From contig WRJA01000020.1 of NCBI GenBank assembly GCA_009782435.1, positions 1 through 33,067 of the forward strand: 33,067 bases of DNA. Direction: 5' to 3'. The stretch comes from Oscillospiraceae bacterium (lineage in GTDB: Bacteria > Bacillota > Clostridia > Oscillospirales > Oscillospiraceae). The notes beneath the pieces were generated by a model. That model saw only the letters and a list, made by a program, of their open reading frames with translations, was not told where the DNA came from and did no database searches. This document shows positions 3,038-14,250 of this stretch, in pieces. The stretch's first letter is position 1; each line of letters starts with the position of its first letter. The translations under genes and the position numbers were made by a program.

Positions 3038-5551
3038 TCAGTATACGATCTCTTTTTTATACCTCAATGTCGTCATGAAACCTGTAAAAGAGCCGAACAT
3101 CAGTAAAAACGCAACCGCCGATATGCCCGGGTCTTCGGTCGCCGGCATATCGCCATAGGGCGGCGGGTCTTCGGGTATCCATTCCTCAAGCTCGGGGTCC
3201 CAGCGCCAAGTGGTCGTCGGGACGCCGTTATCGTCGAGTTCGGTCCAAGTGTCCGGATCGTCACCCGGCACGAGATTTTGACCGGGCGGCGGAGGGCGGC
3301 GCGGCGGATCTGTCGGCGGCGGAGGCGACGACTCCGGCGGGGGTGACGTTTCGGGCGGAGGCGACGGGTCCGGCGATGGGGACGGGTCCGGCGACGGCGT
3401 CGGATCGGTTCCGCCTTCTTCTCCGCCGCCGGTCGGCGGCGAATATGTATTGGTGAAGACGACGTCTTTTTCATCAATGACTTGGTTATTTTTGTCCCTG
3501 TATGTGACTTCCGGCACGCCCGCGGGACTGACTCTTACCGTGACCCGGAACACTTCTTTGCTGTAGCTCCAGCCGCTTGCGCCGGCGGCGGTCTCCGTCA
3601 CTCTGAAATAACAGGTCTCTCCGGTCACGAGGTCATCGAAAACAAAGGAAAAATCTTTATCGCCGGTCACTTCGATCGTTTTCGTCCTTCCGAGGGGTTT
3701 CAGCACAGCGCCGTTTTCATCTTCCGTTTCCTCGATCTTAAAAGTAAATGTCGTATTGACAGTTCCGGCGATCCCTTTGACCTCTTTTTTGCCTTTTATG
3801 ACCGCCGCTCCGGCCGGGGGCGTATAGGAGTTTGTGAAGACGACGTCTTCTTCTCCTATATTATTGTTGTCTTCGTCTCTGTATGTGACTTCCGTATTAC
3901 CTGAGCCGTCGACGGTCACCGTGACTCTGAACAATTCCGAGCTGTAAGTCCAGCCCGGCTCGCTGCCCTTATCCTCAGTTACAATAAAGTAATAGGTCTC
4001 GCCGTTGGTAAGTTCTCCGAACAAAAATGTAAAATCATCCGCGCCTGTCACCCTGATCACATCGGACATTCCGCTTGGTACGGGAGTGTCATCGTATTCC
4101 CCCGTCACTTCCTCTATCCGGAAAGTGAATTGGGAATAGGAGGGCGCGTATATACTCTCGAACGCTTTTTTTCCTTTGATTTCCGCTTCGCCGGGAGGAT
4201 GTATATAAGTGTTTGTGAATTTGACGTCTTCTTGTCCGATAAGATCGTTGTCTTCGTCTCTGTATGTGACGCTCACCGCGCCTTCGCTATCGACGGCTAT
4301 CTCGACCCGGAACAGCTTGTCGCTGTAACCCCACTCCGGTTCGCCGCAGTCGACTTCGGTTATAATAAAGTAATAAGTTTCATCGAGCTCTAAGTCATCG
4401 ACCGTAAAATTAAAATTTCTCGCGCCGCCGTGGCCGGCCAACTCGATCTCATCTGTCCTTCCGCCGCTTTTGGGAGTATCATAGTTTTCGTCTGTCATTT
4501 CCCCGATCAGGAAAGTGAATGTCTTGTTGAGCGCTCCGGCAATATCCTCAACAATTTTCGTTCCGCCGACAGTCGCTTTGAAAGACAGATCAGGGAATCT
4601 GAGAGTGATGCTTCTCTTTACGCTGCCGGTCTGGTTTTCCGCAAACAGCGATACCATTCTTTGATATTTTGAGCTTGAGTTCGGCCCTTGATCTGTTCCG
4701 TAAAAAGCAAGCCAGCTCGGATCAAGGGGCGCGCGCGAGCAGATAAATAAGTCGGTCAGAGGAACGTCTGAATTCAAATATGAGAAAGGCGCTTTGATCG
4801 TCAAAACGTCCGTGCCGCTTCCCGTAAAACCTGAGATCGTTACATCGGCAGGTTTTTTTGAAGCGTCAATGGTGTATTCACCGTGTTTGTATGTGAGAGA
4901 AACCGTCGTTGTCCCTTCGAACCCGCTCCCTTTTTGTTCCATTTCCACAGTCACCGGGGAAACACTGAATTCAGGCATTATGCCTGTTCTCGCGGATGCG
5001 ATCAGATAGTCAAAATAAGCTCTGTAAGCCGTGCTCCATGAGCCGGCTTTGATTACAGATCCCCCTATGTAACTTTCGTTCGTATAGCTTCGCCTGAATT
5101 CGTGCCCGTTTTCGTTCATCCAAAACCAAAGCGCCCATTGAGTCAGCGCCTGCGCGTCGTCATTTGAAAGGCCGCCGCTGTAATTCGGATACCCGTTAAA
5201 CAAAATGGCGCATACACCGTTGTATGTATATTCCGGATAAGTCGTTTTATCAAAAATGTCCACAGGATCGGAGATACTATTGTAATTCACACTCTCAATC
5301 GGACCGTTCCGAGACTGATCAATGCAATACACAGGTCTGGTTTCCCCGGAACCTCTGAAGTATAACATCGCGCTGACGCCTCCGTTGGCGTAGCGGCCTT
5401 TTATGCCTGTCAAATCAGCGCCCGACGCGCTGATTCCCCAACCGGGATAAGTATAAAAAGCGTATACGCCCAAAAGCAGCCAGACAAGCAGCCAAGTCTG
5501 CAGTTTCCCTGCCCTGCTGCTGTTTGATGTTCTTTTCGCATCCACCGGCAT
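3038..5551 (-). CDS. Surface adhesin with thioester and isopeptide domains
   Basis: This protein of about 837 residues appears to be a wall-anchored adhesin. A basic start is followed by a hydrophobic segment (about residues 17-36), consistent with a signal peptide. Residues 50-200 resemble a TQXA-type thioester domain: VYCID with Cys76 and TQWALW with Gln138 could form an internal thioester for covalent attachment to host or matrix. Three repeats follow, each with a Lys (332, 462, 589), a Glu in 'TE' (399, 526, 653) and an Asn in FTN-[TS]-Y (447, 574, 701), the FctA-type isopeptide pattern. Then come a Pro-rich stalk (714-758), MPATED (802-807), a membrane segment and RYKKE. The longest frame starts at 5665, but that codon lies in the promoter. 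ATG 5551 follows GGAGG closely, and GTG 5545 has better spacing. No sortase gene is visible. Confidence 0.82.
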   Translation of the reverse strand: MPVDAKRTSNSSRAGKLQTWLLVWLLLGVYAFYTYPGWGISASGADLTGIKGRYANGGVSAMLYFRGSGETRPVYCIDQSRNGPIESVNYNSISDPVDIFDKTTYPEYTYNGVCAILFNGYPNYSGGLSNDDAQALTQWALWFWMNENGHEFRRSYTNESYIGGSVIKAGSWSTAYRAYFDYLIASARTGIMPEFSVSPVTVEMEQKGSGFEGTTTVSLTYKHGEYTIDASKKPADVTISGFTGSGTDVLTIKAPFSYLNSDVPLTDLFICSRAPLDPSWLAFYGTDQGPNSSSKYQRMVSLFAENQTGSVKRSITLRFPDLSFKATVGGTKIVEDIAGALNKTFTFLIGEMTDENYDTPKSGGRTDEIELAGHGGARNFNFTVDDLELDETYYFIITEVDCGEPEWGYSDKLFRVEIAVDSEGAVSVTYRDEDNDLIGQEDVKFTNTYIHPPGEAEIKGKKAFESIYAPSYSQFTFRIEEVTGEYDDTPVPSGMSDVIRVTGADDFTFLFGELTNGETYYFIVTEDKGSEPGWTYSSELFRVTVTVDGSGNTEVTYRDEDNNNIGEEDVVFTNSYTPPAGAAVIKGKKEVKGIAGTVNTTFTFKIEETEDENGAVLKPLGRTKTIEVTGDKDFSFVFDDLVTGETCYFRVTETAAGASGWSYSKEVFRVTVRVSPAGVPEVTYRDKNNQVIDEKDVVFTNTYSPPTGGGEEGGTDPTPSPDPSPSPDPSPPPETSPPPESSPPPPTDPPRRPPPPGQNLVPGDDPDTWTELDDNGVPTTTWRWDPELEEWIPEDPPPYGDMPATEDPGISAVAFLLMFGSFTGFMTTLRYKKEIVY
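3443..4582 (-). repeat. Three tandem isopeptide-domain repeats
   Basis: Three coding repeats of roughly 120 codons lie at 4582-4205, 4186-3824 and 3805-3443. The repeat ends are most alike, sharing the patterns LFRV-x-VxV, VTYRD-(E/K)-(D/N)-N and V-x-FTN-(T/S)-Y; the similarity is also visible in the DNA. Internal duplication of a stalk domain is the simplest explanation. Confidence 0.85.
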
Positions 5552-5636
5552 CCGCCTCCGATCACTTTGTTTTCCCGGAAAATTTCCGTAAAGCCAAAGA
5601 AAGCCGTGCCTTCCCGGCACCGCTCCATCTTCTTTA

Positions 5637-5665
5637 TTTATATCAAATCCCGGCGCGGATGTCAA
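5637..5665 (-). promoter_or_regulatory. SigA-type promoter for the surface protein
   Basis: On the minus strand a perfect TTGACA (5665-5660) and TATAAA (5642-5637) are 17 bases apart. The predicted start near 5630 gives an 80-base leader before 5551. The 20-bp palindrome at 5679-5727 lies directly upstream of the -35 box. Confidence 0.8.
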
Positions 5666-5803: not shown

Positions 5804-8800
5804 ATGATTACCGCAATAAGAAAATACATATTCGGAAATTCCTCGAAAAATCAAGTCGCCCCGCAGATATTTTTGGTGCTGTGCGCTCATTCGCTGCTTG
5901 TCCCTCTCTATACCCTTGCTTTCTTCGGTAAAGAGGCCATGCTGATTCGCTTCGTCCTCGGCTTCATTACGGTCGCTTTTTTTGTCGCGGCGGAACGCAG
6001 CCCGCTGAGCGTAAAGGGAACGGCGTTTTTATCGCCCTCTTTTACATTTGCTGTTCTGACTTTCGGCGCGATATACTTTAAAGGAGACGGGCTGTTTTTC
6101 TATTATTTATGCTGCGTCGCCATTATTTCGCTCACATATTTTTCTATCTCCGGCCTTGCCGCTTATATTATCGCCACAAGCGTCGCGTCATGCGTAATAC
6201 TGTTCGTTTTTAAGATCAATCTGCTCGGAGAAGCTTACACTCCGATGTATAATATAATTTCCCTGGTCGTCACAACGGGCCTGAACGTATTGGTATTGAC
6301 TTTTTGCATGTTTTGCGAAAACATGCTCCGGGCTTTAACGGAAGCAAAAAACGAGGCGAACGAGGCCCGTATGCGCACTCAGCTTTTTTTGGACGCGCTG
6401 CCCGCTTGCTGTTATCTGTGGGACAAGGATTTCCGCGCCATCGCGGTCAACGACGCGACGGCCAAGCTGTTTTTGCTGAAAGACAAACAAGAATATGCCG
6501 ATCGCTTCTTTGAATTGTCCCCGGAATATCAGCCGGACGGTCAACTCTCCTCCGAAAAAGCAACGCTGCTGCTGCAAGAAGCTTTCAGCAGCGGCAAATG
6601 TGTTTTTGAATGGCTGCACCGGTTATCGGACGGAACGCTGATGCCGGCGGAGGTCACCCTTGTACGTTTTTATTACGGCAGCGAAGACGTCGTGGCGGGT
6701 TTTACCCGCGACCTGCGCGAGCACAAAAAAATGATGACGGATATCGAACAGAGAGACAATCTGCTGATCACTGTCAACAACGCGACGACCCTTCTGCTTC
6801 AGTCGGAAGTCAGCGAATTCGACGACGCGCTTTGGAACGGCATGGGCATGCTCGGCAAGGCGGCGGACGCCGACCGGGTGTACATATGGAAAAACCACAC
6901 GAAGGACGAAAAGCTGTATTGCACGCAGTTGTACGAATGGTCGGAAGGCGCCGAACCGCAGCAGGGCAAGGAATATACGACGGACGTGCTCTATGATGAG
7001 ATAATACCCGGCTGGGAGAGCAGTCTCTCCCGAAATATGTGCATAAACGGCCTTGTAAAAGATATGCTTCCGGCCGAGCAGGAACAACTGTCGAAGCAGG
7101 GGATCTTATCCATTTTGGTCGTGCCGATATTCTTGAAAGATTACTTCTGGGGCTTTGTAGGCTTTGACGACTGCAGAAAAGAGCGGTTGTTCTCGGAAAG
7201 CGAGATATCGGTCCTGCGGGCCGGCAGTCTGCTCATTGCCAACGCTCTTTTGCACAACAAAATGACGATGGAACTCGAAACGGCTTTGGAGAAGGCGCAG
7301 TCCGCCAGCCGCGCGAAAAGCGAATTCCTTTCCAACATGAGCCATGAGATACGAACGCCCATGAACGCGATCATAGGCATGGTCAATATCGGCGAAAGCG
7401 CCGTAAACATGGAACGCAAGGATTACAGCTTCACAAGGATCAAGGACGCGTCTATACATCTGCTCGGCGTTATCAACGATATCCTGGACGTCTCAAAGAT
7501 CGAATCCGGCAGGTTCGAGCTCTCCCCGGCGGAATTTGATTTTGAAAAAATGCTGAAGCGCGTTGTTAACGTGATCAGTTACCGGGTGGATGAAAAAAAC
7601 CAAAAGCTGACCGTATATGTGGACAGAGACATACCCCAAATAATGACAGGCGACGACCAGCGCTTGGCTCAGGTCATAACAAACCTTTTGGGAAACGCGA
7701 TAAAATTCACGCCCGAAAACGGTTCCGTCAGCTTAAAGACATTTTTTATCAAAGAAGAAGACGGGCTCTGTACGATCCGCATTGTCGTGACGGACACCGG
7801 CATAGGCATCAGCTCCGAGCAGCAGGCAAACCTGTTTCAGTCTTTCCGGCAGGCCGAAAGCAGCATTTCACGCAGATTCGGCGGCACGGGCTTGGGTCTT
7901 TCGATCTCAAAAAGCATCGTAGAAATGATGGGCGGCGAGATAACAATAAATTCCGAGCTCGGAAAAGGCTCTTCATTTGCTTTTACCGTTCAAATGAAAC
8001 GCGGTGAAAAAAGAGCGAAAAATTCAGCCAAAGAAGAAATACACTGGGAGAACATCCGTATTTTAGCCGTGGACGACGACGACTATATATTGGAAGATTT
8101 TAAAGGAATCGTTAAAAGATTCGGCGCTTACTGCGATATCGCCGAAAACGGCACGGACGCCTTGAAGCTGCTCGAGAGAAACACCGACTACAATTTGATA
8201 TTCATCGATTGGAAAATGCCGGACATGGACGGTCTCGAGCTGTCTGCGGAATTCAAAAGAAAGATGTCCGATCAAAAAAATCCGGTGGTAATAATGATCT
8301 CCGCCGCCGACAGCAGTATCATCGCGGGAAAAGCGTCGGAAGCGGGCGTCGATAAACTGCTGCAGAAACCCTTGTTCCCGTCGACCATCGAGGACATTGT
8401 GGGCGAATACTTCAACGTAGCGGACAGGCAGGAAGAAGACGAAGATAAAAGCACGATCGGGCTTTTTAAAGGATATTGTATCTTATTGGCTGAAGACATT
8501 GAAATAAACCGAGAGATCGTTCTGTCTTTGCTTGGCCCCACGGGGCTTGAAATCGACTGCGCGGTCAACGGAATCGAGGCGGTGCAGATGTTCAGCGCCT
8601 CGCCCGAGCGGTATGATATGATCTTTATGGACCTGCAAATGCCGGAAATGGACGGCCTTACGGCGGCAAAAACGATCCGTTCGTCCGGAATAAAAAAATC
8701 ATCGGATATCCCGATCATCGCGATGACGGCAAACGTATTTCGCGAAGACGTTGAAAAATGCCTCGAGGCCGGCATGAACGGACATGTCGGAAAACCGCTG

Positions 8801-8854
8801 AATATCGACGAGGTCATTGAGACCCTGCGCGTTTATTTATCCGTGCAGAGTTAA
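5804..8854 (+). CDS. Membrane-bound hybrid sensor histidine kinase
   Basis: The 1016-residue protein senses an unknown signal and passes phosphate through internal receiver domains. Residues 1-175 hold about six membrane segments. A PAS-like domain lies near 190-305 and a GAF-like domain near 320-485. The dimerisation domain contains SHEIRTP with the phosphorylated His514. The ATPase domain follows, with [15 protein letters not shown] and FGGTGLGLS. Two receiver domains follow, with phospho-acceptor Asp802 in FIDWKMPD and Asp943 in FMDLQMPE. No DNA-binding output domain or histidine phosphotransfer domain is present, so the target must be elsewhere. The ATG follows AGAGAGG by about 5 bases. 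The MFS transporter gene begins 37 bases after its stop, so it may control or sense that transporter's substrate. Confidence 0.95.
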
Positions 8855-8891
8855 AACCCGGATACAAACAGCTCACCGAAAGGGAAAAACA

Positions 8892-10142
8892 ATGAAAGAG
8901 AAAACCGCGATAAACCCGCCGTGCCGAAGACAAAATTATATAATATTCACGATCGCCGTTTTCGCGGCTTACGCATTTTTCGGTTTTTCCGAAAACGCCA
9001 AAGGCCCGGCGATCCCGCGTATCCAGGCGGATTTTAATATAACGGAACTGCAGCTGGGATTGCTTTTTGCCGCGAACGCGGCCGGATATCTCATCGCGTG
9101 CATGTATACGGCTGCGCTGGCTAAAAAAATCGGCATAAAGACCTGTATGCTGATCGCCCTTTGCGTTATTGCCGTCTCAGGCATTTTTATTTGTTTTTCC
9201 GGGGGATATTTGACTCTTTTAGCGGCTTTTTTTGTTCTTAATCTCGGGAACGGGATGCTTGAAATATCTTTAAGCGTTATCGCGGCTGCTACTTTCACCA
9301 AGAATACGGGCGCTATGATGAATCTCGCGCATTTCTTTTACGGCGCCGGCGCCGTGTTTTCTCCGGTCGTCTCCGCCGGGCTCATGGCCGCGAGTTTCGG
9401 TTCAAATGTATTCGGCTGGCGGTATATGTATCTTGCGGTACTGGGCATGGCGCTCATTCCGGCGGTGATCGCTCTGATCGGACGTCTCGAAAAAAAGGAT
9501 TACAACAAAAAGAAGACAGGATATGCGGTCATATTGAGAAATCCGACGCTATGGCTTACGGTGATGATCTTCACGCCGGGCGCGATATGCGAAATGGGCG
9601 TCGGCGCGTGGCTTGTGAATTATCTGGAAAAAGCCTGCGGCTATTCCGCTGAAAGCGCCGCTTTATCGCTCACGCTGTTTTTTGTTTGCTTCACACTCAC
9701 AAGACTTATCATAGGCCCTGTGATCGACAAAGTCGGCTTTATCAACTCCCTTGCGGTCCTGACCGCTTTTGCGGGGATAATGATCGTTATCGGGGTTTTG
9801 CGCGGCGAAGCGGGCGTAACGCTGCTCATTATTGCCGGGATCGGCATAGCCCCGGTCTTCCCGACGGTCATGGCGGTCGTGTCCAAGCTTTTTTCCGAGG
9901 AATTGGATGTTGCCGTCACCTCAATAACTACGGTCACCGGTATCCTCACGATACCCGCCAATTTACTGTTGGGGGGCATCATACAATTAGCCCGCACGGC
10001 TTTCGCGAGTACCGCCGCCGACGCCGGCGTCGGCGCCGCTTACTCAGCCGGATACCTGTTTCTCGGGCTGTGCTGCTTCGTCTCGGCCGCCGCCGCGACG
10101 GTCCTCAGGAGCAGACAGAAAAAAATCGGCCGGCTTGTTTGA
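8892..10142 (+). CDS. Major facilitator superfamily transporter
   Basis: The 416-residue protein has about twelve hydrophobic segments in the usual 6+6 arrangement. Sequence such as FSENAKGPAIPRIQADFNIT near the first loop and GNGMLEISLSVIAA in the fourth segment resembles the sugar/fucose-permease side of the MFS. The substrate cannot be fixed from sequence. The start chosen is the ATG preceded by AAAGGG; the frame opens further upstream but overlaps the kinase gene and lacks membrane character there. It lies 37 bases after the kinase stop with no promoter in between, so co-transcription is likely. Confidence 0.88.
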   Translation: MKEKTAINPPCRRQNYIIFTIAVFAAYAFFGFSENAKGPAIPRIQADFNITELQLGLLFAANAAGYLIACMYTAALAKKIGIKTCMLIALCVIAVSGIFICFSGGYLTLLAAFFVLNLGNGMLEISLSVIAAATFTKNTGAMMNLAHFFYGAGAVFSPVVSAGLMAASFGSNVFGWRYMYLAVLGMALIPAVIALIGRLEKKDYNKKKTGYAVILRNPTLWLTVMIFTPGAICEMGVGAWLVNYLEKACGYSAESAALSLTLFFVCFTLTRLIIGPVIDKVGFINSLAVLTAFAGIMIVIGVLRGEAGVTLLIIAGIGIAPVFPTVMAVVSKLFSEELDVAVTSITTVTGILTIPANLLLGGIIQLARTAFASTAADAGVGAAYSAGYLFLGLCCFVSAAAATVLRSRQKKIGRLV

Positions 10143-10188: not shown

Positions 10189-10413
10189 TTGAATAATACA
10201 TACAGCGATGAGATAAACTGCATGAAATGCAAATACTTTTCCGTGTCTTGGGACCCGAATTTCCCGAGAGCATGCAAATTTTACGGTTTTAAGTCGAGGT
10301 CTTTGCCCTCGGTCGAGGTCTTTAATTCTTCAGGGGCCGATTGTATGGGTTTTATTAAAAAAGACAGCAAAAAACGAGCGGCAGATCATTTGCGGGGAGG
10401 GCATTCTGTATGA
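10189..10413 (+). CDS. Small four-cysteine protein, function unknown
   Basis: This 74-residue protein begins at TTG, 10 bases after GGAG (10175-10178). It has Cys11 and Cys14 in NCMKC, then Cys29 in PRACKFYGF and Cys52 in GADCMGF, a pattern suited to binding one zinc or iron ion. The central 'WDPNFPRACKFYGFKS' and 'LPSVEV-x-NSSG' resemble a small conserved bacterial family that I recognise by pattern but cannot name. An internal ATG at Met12 would lose Cys11, which supports the TTG start. The stop overlaps the next start by four bases, so the two are probably translated together. Confidence 0.7.
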   Translation: MNNTYSDEINCMKCKYFSVSWDPNFPRACKFYGFKSRSLPSVEVFNSSGADCMGFIKKDSKKRAADHLRGGHSV

Positions 10414-10883
10414 AAGACAAAGAAAAAGGCATTTCGAAGGAAAGAAAAGGCTGTTTGGCAGTATTTCTTATAATCGCCGCCGCTATTGCCCTGATAGCAG
10501 CGATAACGATTTTTAACCCCTTTGGTTCTTCCGGCCCCGTAAGGCGCTCCGGTCCTTCAAGACAATCCGGCTCTGTGACACAATCGCTCCCCTCCGATCA
10601 GTCCGACGATCGTTCGGATCTGGCAAATCTGCTCGACCTTTCCGAAGAACAGGAAGCCGCAGTCCGGGAAATTTTCAGTGACTGCGGCATAGATGATGTG
10701 ACTTCGATCAGACTGCAAAGCAAGGATACGGAGCAATCGTCATACAGTGTCTCGACCGGCTCCGGGACCTCCGTGATCGTCAACGTAAACAATGAAAGCA
10801 AAAAAGTGGAGAGGATATTTACCAAAGACCATGATATTTATTCGGATAACAGAGTAAGAGCAAAAATAACCGATTTCAACTGA
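10410..10883 (+). CDS. Single-pass membrane protein, function unknown
   Basis: The 157-residue protein has a basic N-terminus (MKDKEKGISKERKG) and one membrane segment (about residues 15-35). A Ser/Arg/Gln-rich linker (about 40-65) leads to an outside domain of about 90 residues. That domain contains LDLSEEQEAAVREIFSDCGI and a strand-rich end with 'TSVIVNVNNESKKVERIF'. I do not recognise the family; the tail looks like a small periplasmic-type fold. The gene overlaps the upstream Cys protein by ATGA and ends one base before the convergent oxidoreductase gene. Confidence 0.7.
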   Translation: MKDKEKGISKERKGCLAVFLIIAAAIALIAAITIFNPFGSSGPVRRSGPSRQSGSVTQSLPSDQSDDRSDLANLLDLSEEQEAAVREIFSDCGIDDVTSIRLQSKDTEQSSYSVSTGSGTSVIVNVNNESKKVERIFTKDHDIYSDNRVRAKITDFN

Positions 10884-10884
10884 G

Positions 10885-13152
10885 TTACGGCATTACCGGC
10901 GCCTTGTATATTTTACACAGCAGAGCGCGCATCGGCCACCCGCCCGTTACGGGATCGAGCATTTCGACGTCGTCCGACGGCGTGAGAACATTACAGTTGG
11001 ACTCCCAAAGGCCTCCGAGCCACGGCTCCCTGTGCGGCAGTTCCGGATACCACCAGTGGCTTTGGACATTTATCACCCGCGGATCGATCTCATCCGATAC
11101 GCGGGCTTTTTGTCTTATAACGCCCTTAGGAGTTTCGACAAAGACCCAATCGCCGTTTTCTATCCCGTGTTTCGCGGCGGTCTCATGATGTATGTCCATG
11201 AGCGGCCAAGGATATTGCTCGCGCGTACCCACTTTAAGCTGTCTGTTTTCCGAGTGGAACATGGGCCGGAAATTCCCGCCGGTTATTAGGATATACGGGT
11301 ATTCCGTCGCAAGCTCGGGCGTTGAATACGGGCTTATCGGCGGCTCCTCATAATACGGCAGCGGATCGTATCCGAGTTTTTCGAGAACGTTGGAATACAG
11401 CTCGACTTTCCCGGAAACCGTAGCGAAGCCGGTCGGCTTGCCCGTGTTCGGATTGATCTTATCATAAGTCCAAGGCTCTTTGCTTTTGATCACATATACC
11501 TTTGTCGCCGCCTCTTTGAAGGTCAGCCCGATCGGTTTCAGTCTGTAGTCCGCTAAATCCTCCTCGTCCTTCCACGGGAAGTGTTCGCCGAAGCCGAGAC
11601 GTTCGGCCAGACCTTTCCACATGAGATATTCTTCGCGGCGCTCCCCTACAGGGTCGGCCGCGCGTTCGGAAACCTTCATGACAGGGGAAAAATCCTCATG
11701 CGTCTCACACATGGGTTTTTCAAGCTTGCTCGCGGCGGGCAGCACATAGTCTGCAAGCATAGCAGTCGGTGTCATCACAAGCTCACTGACGACGGACAGT
11801 TCGAGATTCGGGCTCTTAAGCGCTTTATAGACTAATTTTGTATCACCGGAGTTCAGCAAAGGATTGCTGCCCCATGTGATATTCGCCGTTATCGGATAGG
11901 GGTCCCTTTCGATGATCGCCTTCCAAATAAGAGGCTGAACGGAAAGGAAACTGTGCGCGCTCTGCGGGAACGGCACATTGTATGTCTTTTCATAAATCGG
12001 CGCCATGATCTCATAAGCCGGCCACGTCATGAGTTTGAACCGGTCTGAGCCTATCTGCTTTTTGCGCATGTCGCGCGGCAGGGCCTCCGCCATTTGAAGC
12101 ATGGAATCGCGGACGGCAAACGCCCCGTCTTTGATCGGTCCGGGCCCTTCAGCCGTTTCTCCGCCGCCGACCTTCAAATTCCCGGTCAGCGCGCGAAGGC
12201 AAACGCGCGCCTGCTCGACTCTTATTGAATTGCGGCCGAGCATATCGGTGGAAGACGCGTCTTTCAGTTCCGCCGGAAAATTCGTCGCGTACATCCGCGC
12301 GGATTCAACGATAAGCTCCTTCGGGACCCAAGTGATCTCGCTGACCTTTTCCGGAGTGTATTCCGCCGCGCGGGCCTTAAGCTCCTCAAAACCGTGCGTG
12401 TGATCCCGGACAAATTCCTTGTCGTAAAGCTCTTCCGCAATTATGACATTTATCCATCCGAGCAAGAGCGCCGTATCCGTTCCGGGCCTTATGCGCAGCC
12501 ACAGGTCAGCGTCGTCGCCCACCGAGGTTTTTCGCGGGTCTATCAGTATTATCTTTACCTTTCCCTCGTCGTGCAGCTTCTTCATTCGGTTCCACGCGAG
12601 CGGCGCCGTCTGTTTTACGTCTGTCCCGTGTATGACGGCGCATTTGGGCATTACAGAGTGCCGCCCGCCCTGTGCCGTGCCTATCAAAGCGAGCGACAGC
12701 GCCGTTGTATTGCAATGGCATATCGTTCCCGCGCAGCCTATGTTGGAAGGGTTCCCGAACAGGTTCAGGAATCTTGTCCGTATGCCGTATATGTCGCTGC
12801 GATAAGTCCCTTCCGTTACGGAGAGCGTCTCCGGGCCGTATTTTCCTTTCAGCTCCGCGAGCTTTGCCGCTATCTCATCGAGCGCTGTGTCCCAAGATAT
12901 CTCCTCCCAGCGCCCTTCTCCGCGCTCACCGACGCGTTTGAGCGGCTTTTTTATCTGTATATCGCTGTAAAGCCATTTGATGTGGTGAGGCATCCGGTCG
13001 GCGCAGCCCTTGTTTAAAGACGGATAATCCGGGTTCGGGCTCAGGCGGACAAGTTTTCCGTTTTCGCGCTCCGCGATCAGCCCGCAGTACATCTTGCACC
13101 CGGGCGAAGCCCAGCAAACTATTTGTCTTTGGTCTTTATCTCCGTTTCCCAT
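10885..13152 (-). CDS. Molybdopterin oxidoreductase, acetylene-hydratase-like group
   Basis: The 755-residue protein belongs to the DMSO reductase superfamily (Mo or W bis-MGD enzymes). An N-terminal iron-sulfur motif has Cys13, Cys19, Cys23 and Cys50. The last three fit C-x3-C-x26-C, but the first is C-x5-C rather than the usual C-x2/3-C. Cys145 in TICHCNT is the likely metal ligand. The C-terminal cofactor domain runs from about 620 to 755. Segments such as EKLGYDPLPYY, NVII-x-E-x-LYDKEF and MTPTA-x-LADYVLP resemble my memory of Pelobacter acetylene hydratase. However, the residue after the second motif Cys is Lys20, where that enzyme has its catalytic Asp. No Tat signal is present, so it is cytoplasmic. 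No electron-transfer or membrane subunit is nearby. GGAGG lies 13 bases before the ATG. The true substrate is unknown. Confidence 0.9.
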   Translation of the reverse strand: MGNGDKDQRQIVCWASPGCKMYCGLIAERENGKLVRLSPNPDYPSLNKGCADRMPHHIKWLYSDIQIKKPLKRVGERGEGRWEEISWDTALDEIAAKLAELKGKYGPETLSVTEGTYRSDIYGIRTRFLNLFGNPSNIGCAGTICHCNTTALSLALIGTAQGGRHSVMPKCAVIHGTDVKQTAPLAWNRMKKLHDEGKVKIILIDPRKTSVGDDADLWLRIRPGTDTALLLGWINVIIAEELYDKEFVRDHTHGFEELKARAAEYTPEKVSEITWVPKELIVESARMYATNFPAELKDASSTDMLGRNSIRVEQARVCLRALTGNLKVGGGETAEGPGPIKDGAFAVRDSMLQMAEALPRDMRKKQIGSDRFKLMTWPAYEIMAPIYEKTYNVPFPQSAHSFLSVQPLIWKAIIERDPYPITANITWGSNPLLNSGDTKLVYKALKSPNLELSVVSELVMTPTAMLADYVLPAASKLEKPMCETHEDFSPVMKVSERAADPVGERREEYLMWKGLAERLGFGEHFPWKDEEDLADYRLKPIGLTFKEAATKVYVIKSKEPWTYDKINPNTGKPTGFATVSGKVELYSNVLEKLGYDPLPYYEEPPISPYSTPELATEYPYILITGGNFRPMFHSENRQLKVGTREQYPWPLMDIHHETAAKHGIENGDWVFVETPKGVIRQKARVSDEIDPRVINVQSHWWYPELPHREPWLGGLWESNCNVLTPSDDVEMLDPVTGGWPMRALLCKIYKAPVMP

Positions 13153-13186
13153 AATTGTCTGCGATCCTCCTTTTTGAATATATTTA

Positions 13187-13234
13187 TTGCGAATCCCGTC
13201 CTTGTATTATATAATTTCCGATATCAGAAGTCAT
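13187..13234. promoter_or_regulatory. Overlapping divergent promoters of pfkA and the oxidoreductase
   Basis: For pfkA, TTGCGA (13187-13192) and TATAAT (13210-13215) are 17 bases apart. For the leftward gene, ATGACT (13234-13229) and TATAAT (13211-13206) are also 17 bases apart. The two -10 boxes share the palindrome ATTATATAAT (13206-13215). The two promoters should therefore compete. The pfkA promoter is the stronger match. Confidence 0.6.
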
Positions 13235-13275
13235 CTGACGGGGAGGCGTCCTCTCCGGGAAAGAAGGTTTAAAGA

Positions 13276-14250
13276 ATGAGCAATATAAAGCGTATTGGCG
13301 TGTTGACCAGCGGCGGCGACGCTCCGGGGATGAACGCGGCGGTCCGCGCGGTCGCACGGACCTGCATCCATCACAACGTGGAATGCCTCGGGATAAAGCG
13401 CGGCTACAACGGCCTTATCTCGGGGGATATTATGCCGCTCGACAACAGCAATGTCAGCGGGATCATGAGACTGGGCGGCACTATTCTTTTCACTGCCCGC
13501 TGCGATGAATTCACCACAAAAGAAGGGCAGGAAAAAGCGAAGGCGACCTGCAAATATTTAGGCTTGGACGCTTTGATCGTCATAGGCGGCGACGGCACGT
13601 TCAGGGGCGCGCAGGCTGTTTCCGAGTTGGGCGTCGGAGCGATCGGCATCCCGGCGACCATCGATAACGATATCGCCTGTTCAAATTACACGATCGGCTT
13701 TGACAGCGCGTGCAATACAGCCGTCGAATGCATCGACAAGCTGCGCGACACCATGCTGTCTCACGAGCGCTGCTCCGTTGTTGAGGTTATGGGACGGCAC
13801 GCGGGACATTTGGCGCTGTATGTGGCTATTGCCTGCGGCGCTACCGCCGTTCTCGTTCCCGAATACGATACCGACATTGACAACAGCATAATCGAGAGGA
13901 TAAGACGCTCGAGGATAGGCGGCAGGACCCATTTTGTTATTATCGTGGCGGAAGGCGCCGCCTGCGGCGCTCACGCATTATCCGAAAAAATAAATGAATC
14001 GCTCGGCATAGAACCGAAAGTTACCATACTCGGACACATACAGCGCGGCGGCGCTCCCACAGCCCGCGACCGCGTAACCGCAAGCCGGCTCGGGCAATAC
14101 GCCGTAAATCTCGCGCTTGAAGGAAAACTCGGCCGCGTCGTCGCCATGAACAGCGGAGAGTTGTTCGACTATGACATTAACGAAGCGCTTTCGATGACCA
14201 AGGGCCTCAGAGAATCCCTGTATGACAATATGAACGTCGTGAGCTGGTGA
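13276..14250 (+). CDS. pfkA: ATP-dependent 6-phosphofructokinase
   Basis: The 324-residue protein phosphorylates fructose 6-phosphate to fructose 1,6-bisphosphate, the committed step of glycolysis. Visible motifs are TSGGDAPGMN (11-20), IGGDGT (103-108), IPATIDND (125-132) with the catalytic Asp130 and Asp132, MGRHAGH (172-178) and GHIQRGG. Gly107 in GGDGT points to ATP rather than pyrophosphate as donor. Length matches the bacterial family of about 320 residues. The ATG follows AGAAGG by 8 bases. The final codons and the bases just after the stop are repeated 306 bp downstream, so the 3' end has been rearranged, though the gene itself looks complete. Confidence 0.96.
   Translation: MSNIKRIGVLTSGGDAPGMNAAVRAVARTCIHHNVECLGIKRGYNGLISGDIMPLDNSNVSGIMRLGGTILFTARCDEFTTKEGQEKAKATCKYLGLDALIVIGGDGTFRGAQAVSELGVGAIGIPATIDNDIACSNYTIGFDSACNTAVECIDKLRDTMLSHERCSVVEVMGRHAGHLALYVAIACGATAVLVPEYDTDIDNSIIERIRRSRIGGRTHFVIIVAEGAACGAHALSEKINESLGIEPKVTILGHIQRGGAPTARDRVTASRLGQYAVNLALEGKLGRVVAMNSGELFDYDINEALSMTKGLRESLYDNMNVVSW

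Follow-up and report, generated by a model that had tools for sequence, protein, structure and literature searches.

The window, by which we mean the whole 33,067-nucleotide stretch of DNA analysed here, encodes a 755-residue enzyme whose clade, uncharacterised so far and with members from two phyla, neighbours acetylene hydratase (AH). As judged by alignment, a shifted first cluster cysteine is a trait of the whole clade. Our best reading, held tentatively, is that the protein is a stand-alone, cytosolic, Cys-ligated W/Mo enzyme that would carry out an early step in the use of a polar acid. Hydration or dehydration is the more probable chemistry, ahead of reduction with a soluble donor.

The enzyme gene and its product

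The gene lies on the minus strand and converges with a transporter gene:

10885..13152, minus strand: gene for the AH-related W/Mo-bisPGD enzyme, 755 aa, an open reading frame with an ATG start
13166..13170, minus strand: ribosome-binding site GGAGG, 13 bases before the enzyme's ATG
13206..13234, minus strand: promoter-like site ATGACT - 17 - TATAAT, a consensus match only
8817..10142, plus strand: MFS transporter gene, convergent to the enzyme gene

Promoter-like sites in 10300-13400 numbered 5, against 2.2 expected. The MFS gene had no match among the fetched loci but itself (E 1e-25, half length) and is unrelated to the MFS gene that adjoins the enzyme gene in Family XIII relatives. Directly upstream of it lies a hybrid sensor histidine kinase with PAS, GAF, HisKA and receiver domains (5804-8854, plus strand), and further out a surface protein with a thioester domain and isopeptide (Spy0128-like) domains (3038-5665, minus strand).

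The 755-residue protein matches the Pfam families Molybdopterin (PF00384, 7.7e-33) and Molydop_binding (PF01568, 7e-17), and both domains agree with the fold in making it a member of the DMSO-reductase (MopB) superfamily. AlphaFold2 gave a model with mean pLDDT 86.9 and pTM 0.90. The best solved match by sequence is AH (PDB 2e7z, E 7e-124; 37.5% identity by BLASTP), and the same entry is the best fold match (Foldseek rank 1, 35% identity). VIA-align superposed model and 2e7z with Z 46.1 over 720 residues at 2.0 Å, the next entry scoring 32.7. AH is therefore the closest solved relative by sequence and fold, consistent with the preliminary description of the enzyme as acetylene-hydratase-like.

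Phylogeny and distribution of the clade

The clade has ten members: the window protein, three from Clostridiales Family XIII MAGs (80-82% identity; loci L001-L003), one from another Firmicute (59%) and five from Acidobacteriota (55-57%), three of these in Acidobacteria MAGs (L004-L006). Membership is sparse. Across 398 genomes of the phylum, G406 alone held another clade member, further matches reaching at most 44% over most of their length, and it was the one genome of 22 in its class to have one. Among Acidobacteriota, 5 of 347 genomes had a clade member, two of them beyond L004-L006. No further member appeared in 80 relatives of the window's genome, where the best full-length match was 38% and one gene matched in two pieces at 41-42%. 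A plasmid collection gave four matches at 29-35% identity.

We built a 64-row tree from 67 proteins, less L026 (a duplicate of L027) and the incomplete L093 and L097, and a 32-row tree from a chosen subset that held seven of the ten clade members and left out the first-motif columns. All ten members form one group in the first (SH-aLRT 100), as do the seven in the second (100/100). The clade, AH and the C-x2-C clades together form one group with SH-aLRT 99 in the 64 rows and 93/96, not starred, in the 32. In these trees, which contain no named catechol dehydroxylase sequences, the protein does not fall within a characterised subfamily that shares its Cys pattern.

A further branch is separate from the C-x5-C clade in both trees. 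The actinobacterial genome G1189 has 37 matches akin to the W-S-P-G-P-G-C protein found in the window's genome. Most of the copies read (L138-L140, L142) have the motif W-[ST]-x-P-G-C and lack the first cluster Cys; every copy read has a small 4Fe-4S protein as a neighbour, and for some an MFS-like gene is adjacent. Going by the published description, this G1189 branch probably represents the Gordonibacter-type catechol dehydroxylases. In the window's genome the W-S-P-G-P-G-C type enzyme is encoded with a small ferredoxin on contig C17 (L069:6811-13789), next to a divergent pair that by eye resembles the two subunits, large and small, of a transhydroxylase. The genome, 2.15 Mb in size, has superfamily members at about 15 other places.

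The cluster motif and active site

The motif and the residues discussed below are encoded at the following positions:

13084..13116, minus strand: codons Cys13 to Cys23 (C-W-A-S-P-G-C-K-M-Y-C), first three cluster ligands and inserted loop, by alignment
13093-13095, minus strand: Lys20 codon, from the translation
13003..13005, minus strand: Cys50 codon, fourth cluster ligand, by alignment
12712..12720, minus strand: codons Cys145-His146-Cys147, with Cys145 aligned to the AH W ligand Cys141
11692..11697, minus strand: codons Glu486-Asp487, clade-invariant, where AH has Trp472-Glu473, by alignment

The translation reads C13-x5-C19-x3-C23-x26-C50, with Ser16, Lys20 and Cys145 just as the preliminary description had them. 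All four cluster Cys align with those of AH, but C-x5-C stands for C-x2-C: Cys13 pairs with AH Cys9, and Ser16 sits in a three-residue insertion. The earlier placing of Ser16 at the first ligand's position is thus true only when one counts C-x2-C. Because Cys13 aligns with AH Cys9, the first ligand would be shifted outward by the insertion, not lost; we rejected outright loss of this ligand, as Cys13 is present in 10/10 members. The sequence C-W-[AP]-S-P-G-C is likewise common to all ten, the nine others being 55-82% identical to the window protein, so the odd residues are not there by chance. In the AlphaFold2 model, loop 15-18, at the Cys13 insertion, has pLDDT below 50.

We took a census of the motif in 90 distinct family proteins with a simple rule that mis-scores some rows, such as L106. 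It returned C-x2-C in 43, no upstream Cys within 8 residues in 21, C-x5-C in 10, C-x6-C in 6, C-x1-C and C-x3-C in 1 each, and no motif in 8. The C-x5-C holders are exactly the ten clade members.

At the position of AH Asp13, four clade members have Lys and six His, bearing out the earlier remark that Asp is missing behind the second motif Cys. Across 54 other family rows, His is commonest here (31) and Asp occurs in 5. Cys145 is Cys in 10/10 clade members and 54/54 other rows; being invariant in all 64, it is no specific mark of AH. Cys147, by comparison, is invariant in the clade and occurs in 1 of the 54. Ser16, Glu114, Tyr117, Ser119, Tyr122, Asn148, Arg311, Glu313, His400, Glu486, Asp487 and further residues are also clade-invariant and occur in at most 3 of the 54. 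Arg53, three residues past Cys50, pairs with AH Lys48.

The substrate tunnel of AH is lined by Ile14, Ile113, Ile142, Trp179, Trp293 and Trp472; two of these, Trp179 and Trp472, are named in the available portion of PMC12096430. The clade has Met, Asp or Cys at AH position 14 (seven members compared) and, in all ten members, Tyr at 113, His, Gly or Ala at 142, Pro or Arg at 179, Asp, Arg or Ser at 293 and Glu at 472. Hence every tunnel residue compared differs from that of AH, with a polar or charged side chain in several cases, which may speak for a polar substrate. At AH Arg606, six members keep Arg; the window protein and the three relatives closest to it have Asn.

Redox partners

We scanned for open reading frames with a ferredoxin-type C-x2-C-x2-C-x3-C motif within 10 kb and included ten control genes. 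None lies within 10 kb of the enzyme gene in the window. Beside the nine other clade genes no small 4Fe-4S partner was found in the flanks covered, which span only 2.5 and 0.8 kb in G406, 1.5 kb downstream in G476, and two contigs each in G474 and G475. The motif matches in clade loci were glycyl-radical activases in L001, L104 and L168, each with a radical-SAM-like start by eye. L005 has a 409-residue opposite-strand frame 454 bases away, which by eye resembles an aldo/keto reductase that is exported and carries ferredoxin motifs. All ten control genes (L055, L056 and L057 of the sister clade; L064, L069, L138, two in L139, L140 and L142 of the W-S-x-P-G-C type) have a ferredoxin-type frame overlapping or within 4 bases. 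The preliminary description had seen no electron-transfer subunit beside the gene, and this extends from the window to the clade flanks covered by the motif scan. Lack of an adjacent redox subunit is compatible with free ferredoxin and does not exclude its use.

The main rival reading, possible but doubtful, makes the protein a soluble-donor reductase that would remove a hydroxyl or reduce C=C or C=O with free ferredoxin, like the Gordonibacter-type catechol dehydroxylases. Electron transfer would be in keeping with the retained cluster Cys and with a basic side chain at position 53. According to the accessible sections of PMC7028382, the Gordonibacter enzymes are without a TAT signal, are smaller than those of E. 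lenta, and have a small 4Fe-4S protein and an adjoining MFS gene as neighbours. An MFS gene also adjoins the clade gene in L001-L003; none was seen beside the gene in L054. Two observations count against the reductase. The branch that fits the catechol dehydroxylase description is separate in both trees and typically has W-S-x-P-G-C without the first Cys, and the small 4Fe-4S partner found beside 7/7 W-S-x-P-G-C genes is beside no clade member in the flanks covered.

Gene neighbourhood and the co-occurring route

In L001, from the best assembled relative (G473), the gene order is TRAP DctP-DctQ-DctM, MFS, the AH-like gene, a glycyl-radical enzyme (GRE, 839 residues), its activase, a fused methylaspartate-mutase-like E-S protein, GlmL and MmgE/PrpD. 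The contig also carries, by eye, alcohol dehydrogenase-like and aldehyde dehydrogenase-like genes. In G474 (L104) and G475 (L168) the GRE again follows the AH-like gene, on contigs with its 3' part, making this order common to 3/3 Family XIII relatives. L161 and L167 carry downstream operon genes, and L003 (G475) has a sigma-54-type regulator, TRAP genes and MFS upstream. In G406 the gene is flanked by MmgE/PrpD on one side and a LysR-like regulator on the other, and in L004 and L103 thiolase-like and 3-hydroxyacyl-CoA dehydrogenase-like genes lie within about 6 kb. The glycyl-radical and B12 enzymes encoded beside the gene in its nearest relatives point to an undescribed breakdown pathway. 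The gene had been called an orphan. This stands locally, for the window; it does not stand for the Family XIII relatives, where the gene sits in an operon. Nor is the window's genome devoid of the core genes, for contig C60 carries GRE (75%), activase and MmgE/PrpD (59%), and contig C51 carries TRAP (DctM 55%), fused mutase (62%) and GlmL (55%). Position alone, then, makes the gene an orphan; the gene content of its genome does not.

Matches to PF06368 fall into two score classes, 689-766 and 392-471 bits, apart from G475, where the protein is split. The mutase of clade genomes scores 392-468 bits (two pieces of 215 and 76 in G475), and this divergent, low-class form is present in 10/10 clade genomes. 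Of 347 Acidobacteriota, 8 have it: 5/5 with a clade member and 3/342 without. Fisher's test gives p 1.4e-9 ignoring kinship, a value that overstates independence because the five Acidobacteriota fall into a pair of closely related sets and three of the five served as search seeds. The L001 mutase-like protein falls under the TIGR01503 cut-off (356.6 against 390.1). We rejected true glutamate fermentation on the low PF06368 class and this sub-threshold score. Nicotinate fermentation, which runs via 2-methyleneglutarate mutase, was also weighed as a candidate route.

A GRE of at least 59% identity occurs in 7/10 clade genomes; in G477, G478 and G594 the GRE matches reach no more than 33-34%. Its Cys motif is S-G-C-L-G-Y-H in 9/10 sequences checked and S-G-C-L-A-Y-N in G406, whereas the two best solved matches read G-C-V-E. 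The GRE thus is without the Glu found there in the diol-dehydratase type, in which this residue, two places after the Cys, has a role. Copies of the GRE family (L001:6265-8784, L191:789-3311, L175:10829-13354, L192:3338-5944) are 59-95% identical to the L001 copy, and the family shares genomes with the glutamate-mutase-like protein and GlmL, often with MmgE/PrpD. Open literature on AH, glycyl radical and mutase together matched only on hydrocarbon biodegradation, and none among the matches listed joined a GRE or TRAP transporter with methylaspartate mutase.

An enzyme of the same type could instead be unrelated to the GRE/mutase route, with co-occurrence reflecting a shared anaerobic catabolic lifestyle; we consider this unlikely. 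In its favour, the AH-like gene lies apart from the stretch bearing the mutase in the window's genome, in G406 and in the Acidobacteriota. Furthermore, GRE (77-78%) and a fused low-class mutase occur in G002, G007 and G011, Family relatives of the window's genome that have no clade member, so that the route can do without the enzyme. What argues for a connection is the GRE behind the AH-like gene in all three Family XIII relatives and, in G406, a LysR-like regulator beside the gene that shares 63% identity with the regulator adjoining the mutase.

Proposed function

Returning to the stand-alone hydration or dehydration enzyme, we suggest the following scheme. A small polar or carboxylate substrate would be imported by TRAP or MFS transporters. 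The enzyme would hold W or Mo on two MGD, with its [4Fe-4S] cluster kept reduced as in AH, and would most likely add or remove water at the metal with no net redox change. Lys20 or His20, Tyr117, Glu486-Asp487 and other polar residues of the clade may stand in for Asp13. The reaction would be an early catabolic step, with the route continuing via the GRE, the glutamate-mutase-like B12 enzyme and MmgE/PrpD. Kinship with AH and the missing redox partner favour non-redox water chemistry. One point against this best reading is that neither Lys20 nor His20 can work in the manner of Asp13.

According to the available text of PMC12096430, no Mo- or W-dependent enzyme other than AH is known to work without a redox reaction, and the relatives of AH lack biochemical characterisation. 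A bolder proposal, somewhat unlikely in our estimate, is that the clade contains a second non-redox W/Mo hydro-lyase besides AH. It would start an undescribed fermentation of a small plant acid in which a W/Mo enzyme, a Glu-less GRE, a glutamate-mutase-type B12 enzyme and MmgE/PrpD act in sequence, and which has spread between Firmicutes and Acidobacteriota. The conserved neighbours offer a first handle on the substrate, and the gene set puts forward a candidate pathway in which radical or metal enzymes of three kinds take part.

That the protein is a true AH with an altered active site is very improbable: AH is its best match in both fold and sequence, but Asp13 is Lys or His in 10/10, the compared tunnel residues are replaced, AH branches on its own with two actinobacterial proteins that both keep the Asp, and exchange of Asp13 for Ala abolishes activity completely, as stated in the part of PMC12096430 available. 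By these sequence criteria, the window protein is not an AH.

Comparison with known systems

Pyrogallol-phloroglucinol transhydroxylase belongs to the same superfamily and appears at Foldseek rank 32 (4v4c), but at 18% identity. Its large subunit is not known to hold a cluster and has a Ser ligand.

The sister clade (L055, L056, L057) is closer, with 40-42% identity and a Cys metal ligand; it differs in its C-x2-C motif and adjacent ferredoxin-type subunit. Its clusters L055:5977-16555 and L056:6237-17458 each hold two AH-related paralogues about 3.4-4 kb apart, the second adjoining a ferredoxin-type subunit and a membrane-protein-like gene.

The Gordonibacter-type catechol dehydroxylases (Dodh, Gp Hcdh) resemble the clade in size, in belonging to the bis-MGD family and in the MFS gene nearby in Family XIII relatives. 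Gp Hcdh has 770 aa according to the available part of PMC11585353, and AH is given as the closest relative of catechol dehydroxylases in what is accessible of PMC7028382. They differ in having a small 4Fe-4S subunit and in forming, if matched correctly by the published description, a separate branch mostly without the first Cys.

AH of Pelobacter/Syntrophotalea acetylenica shares with the window protein the fold over 720 residues, the Cys metal ligand, the four cluster Cys and about 35-37% identity. Both appear to be single-subunit enzymes, for the window protein as far as the neighbourhood tells. AH differs in its Asp13, its own tunnel residues and its C-x2-C spacing, the first Cys of the clade being shifted three residues, as well as in its separate branch; TRAP, GRE and B12-mutase neighbours are a feature of the clade relatives. 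By keeping the fold and metal ligand of AH without its catalytic Asp, the clade offers a direct test of how far AH chemistry depends on that residue.
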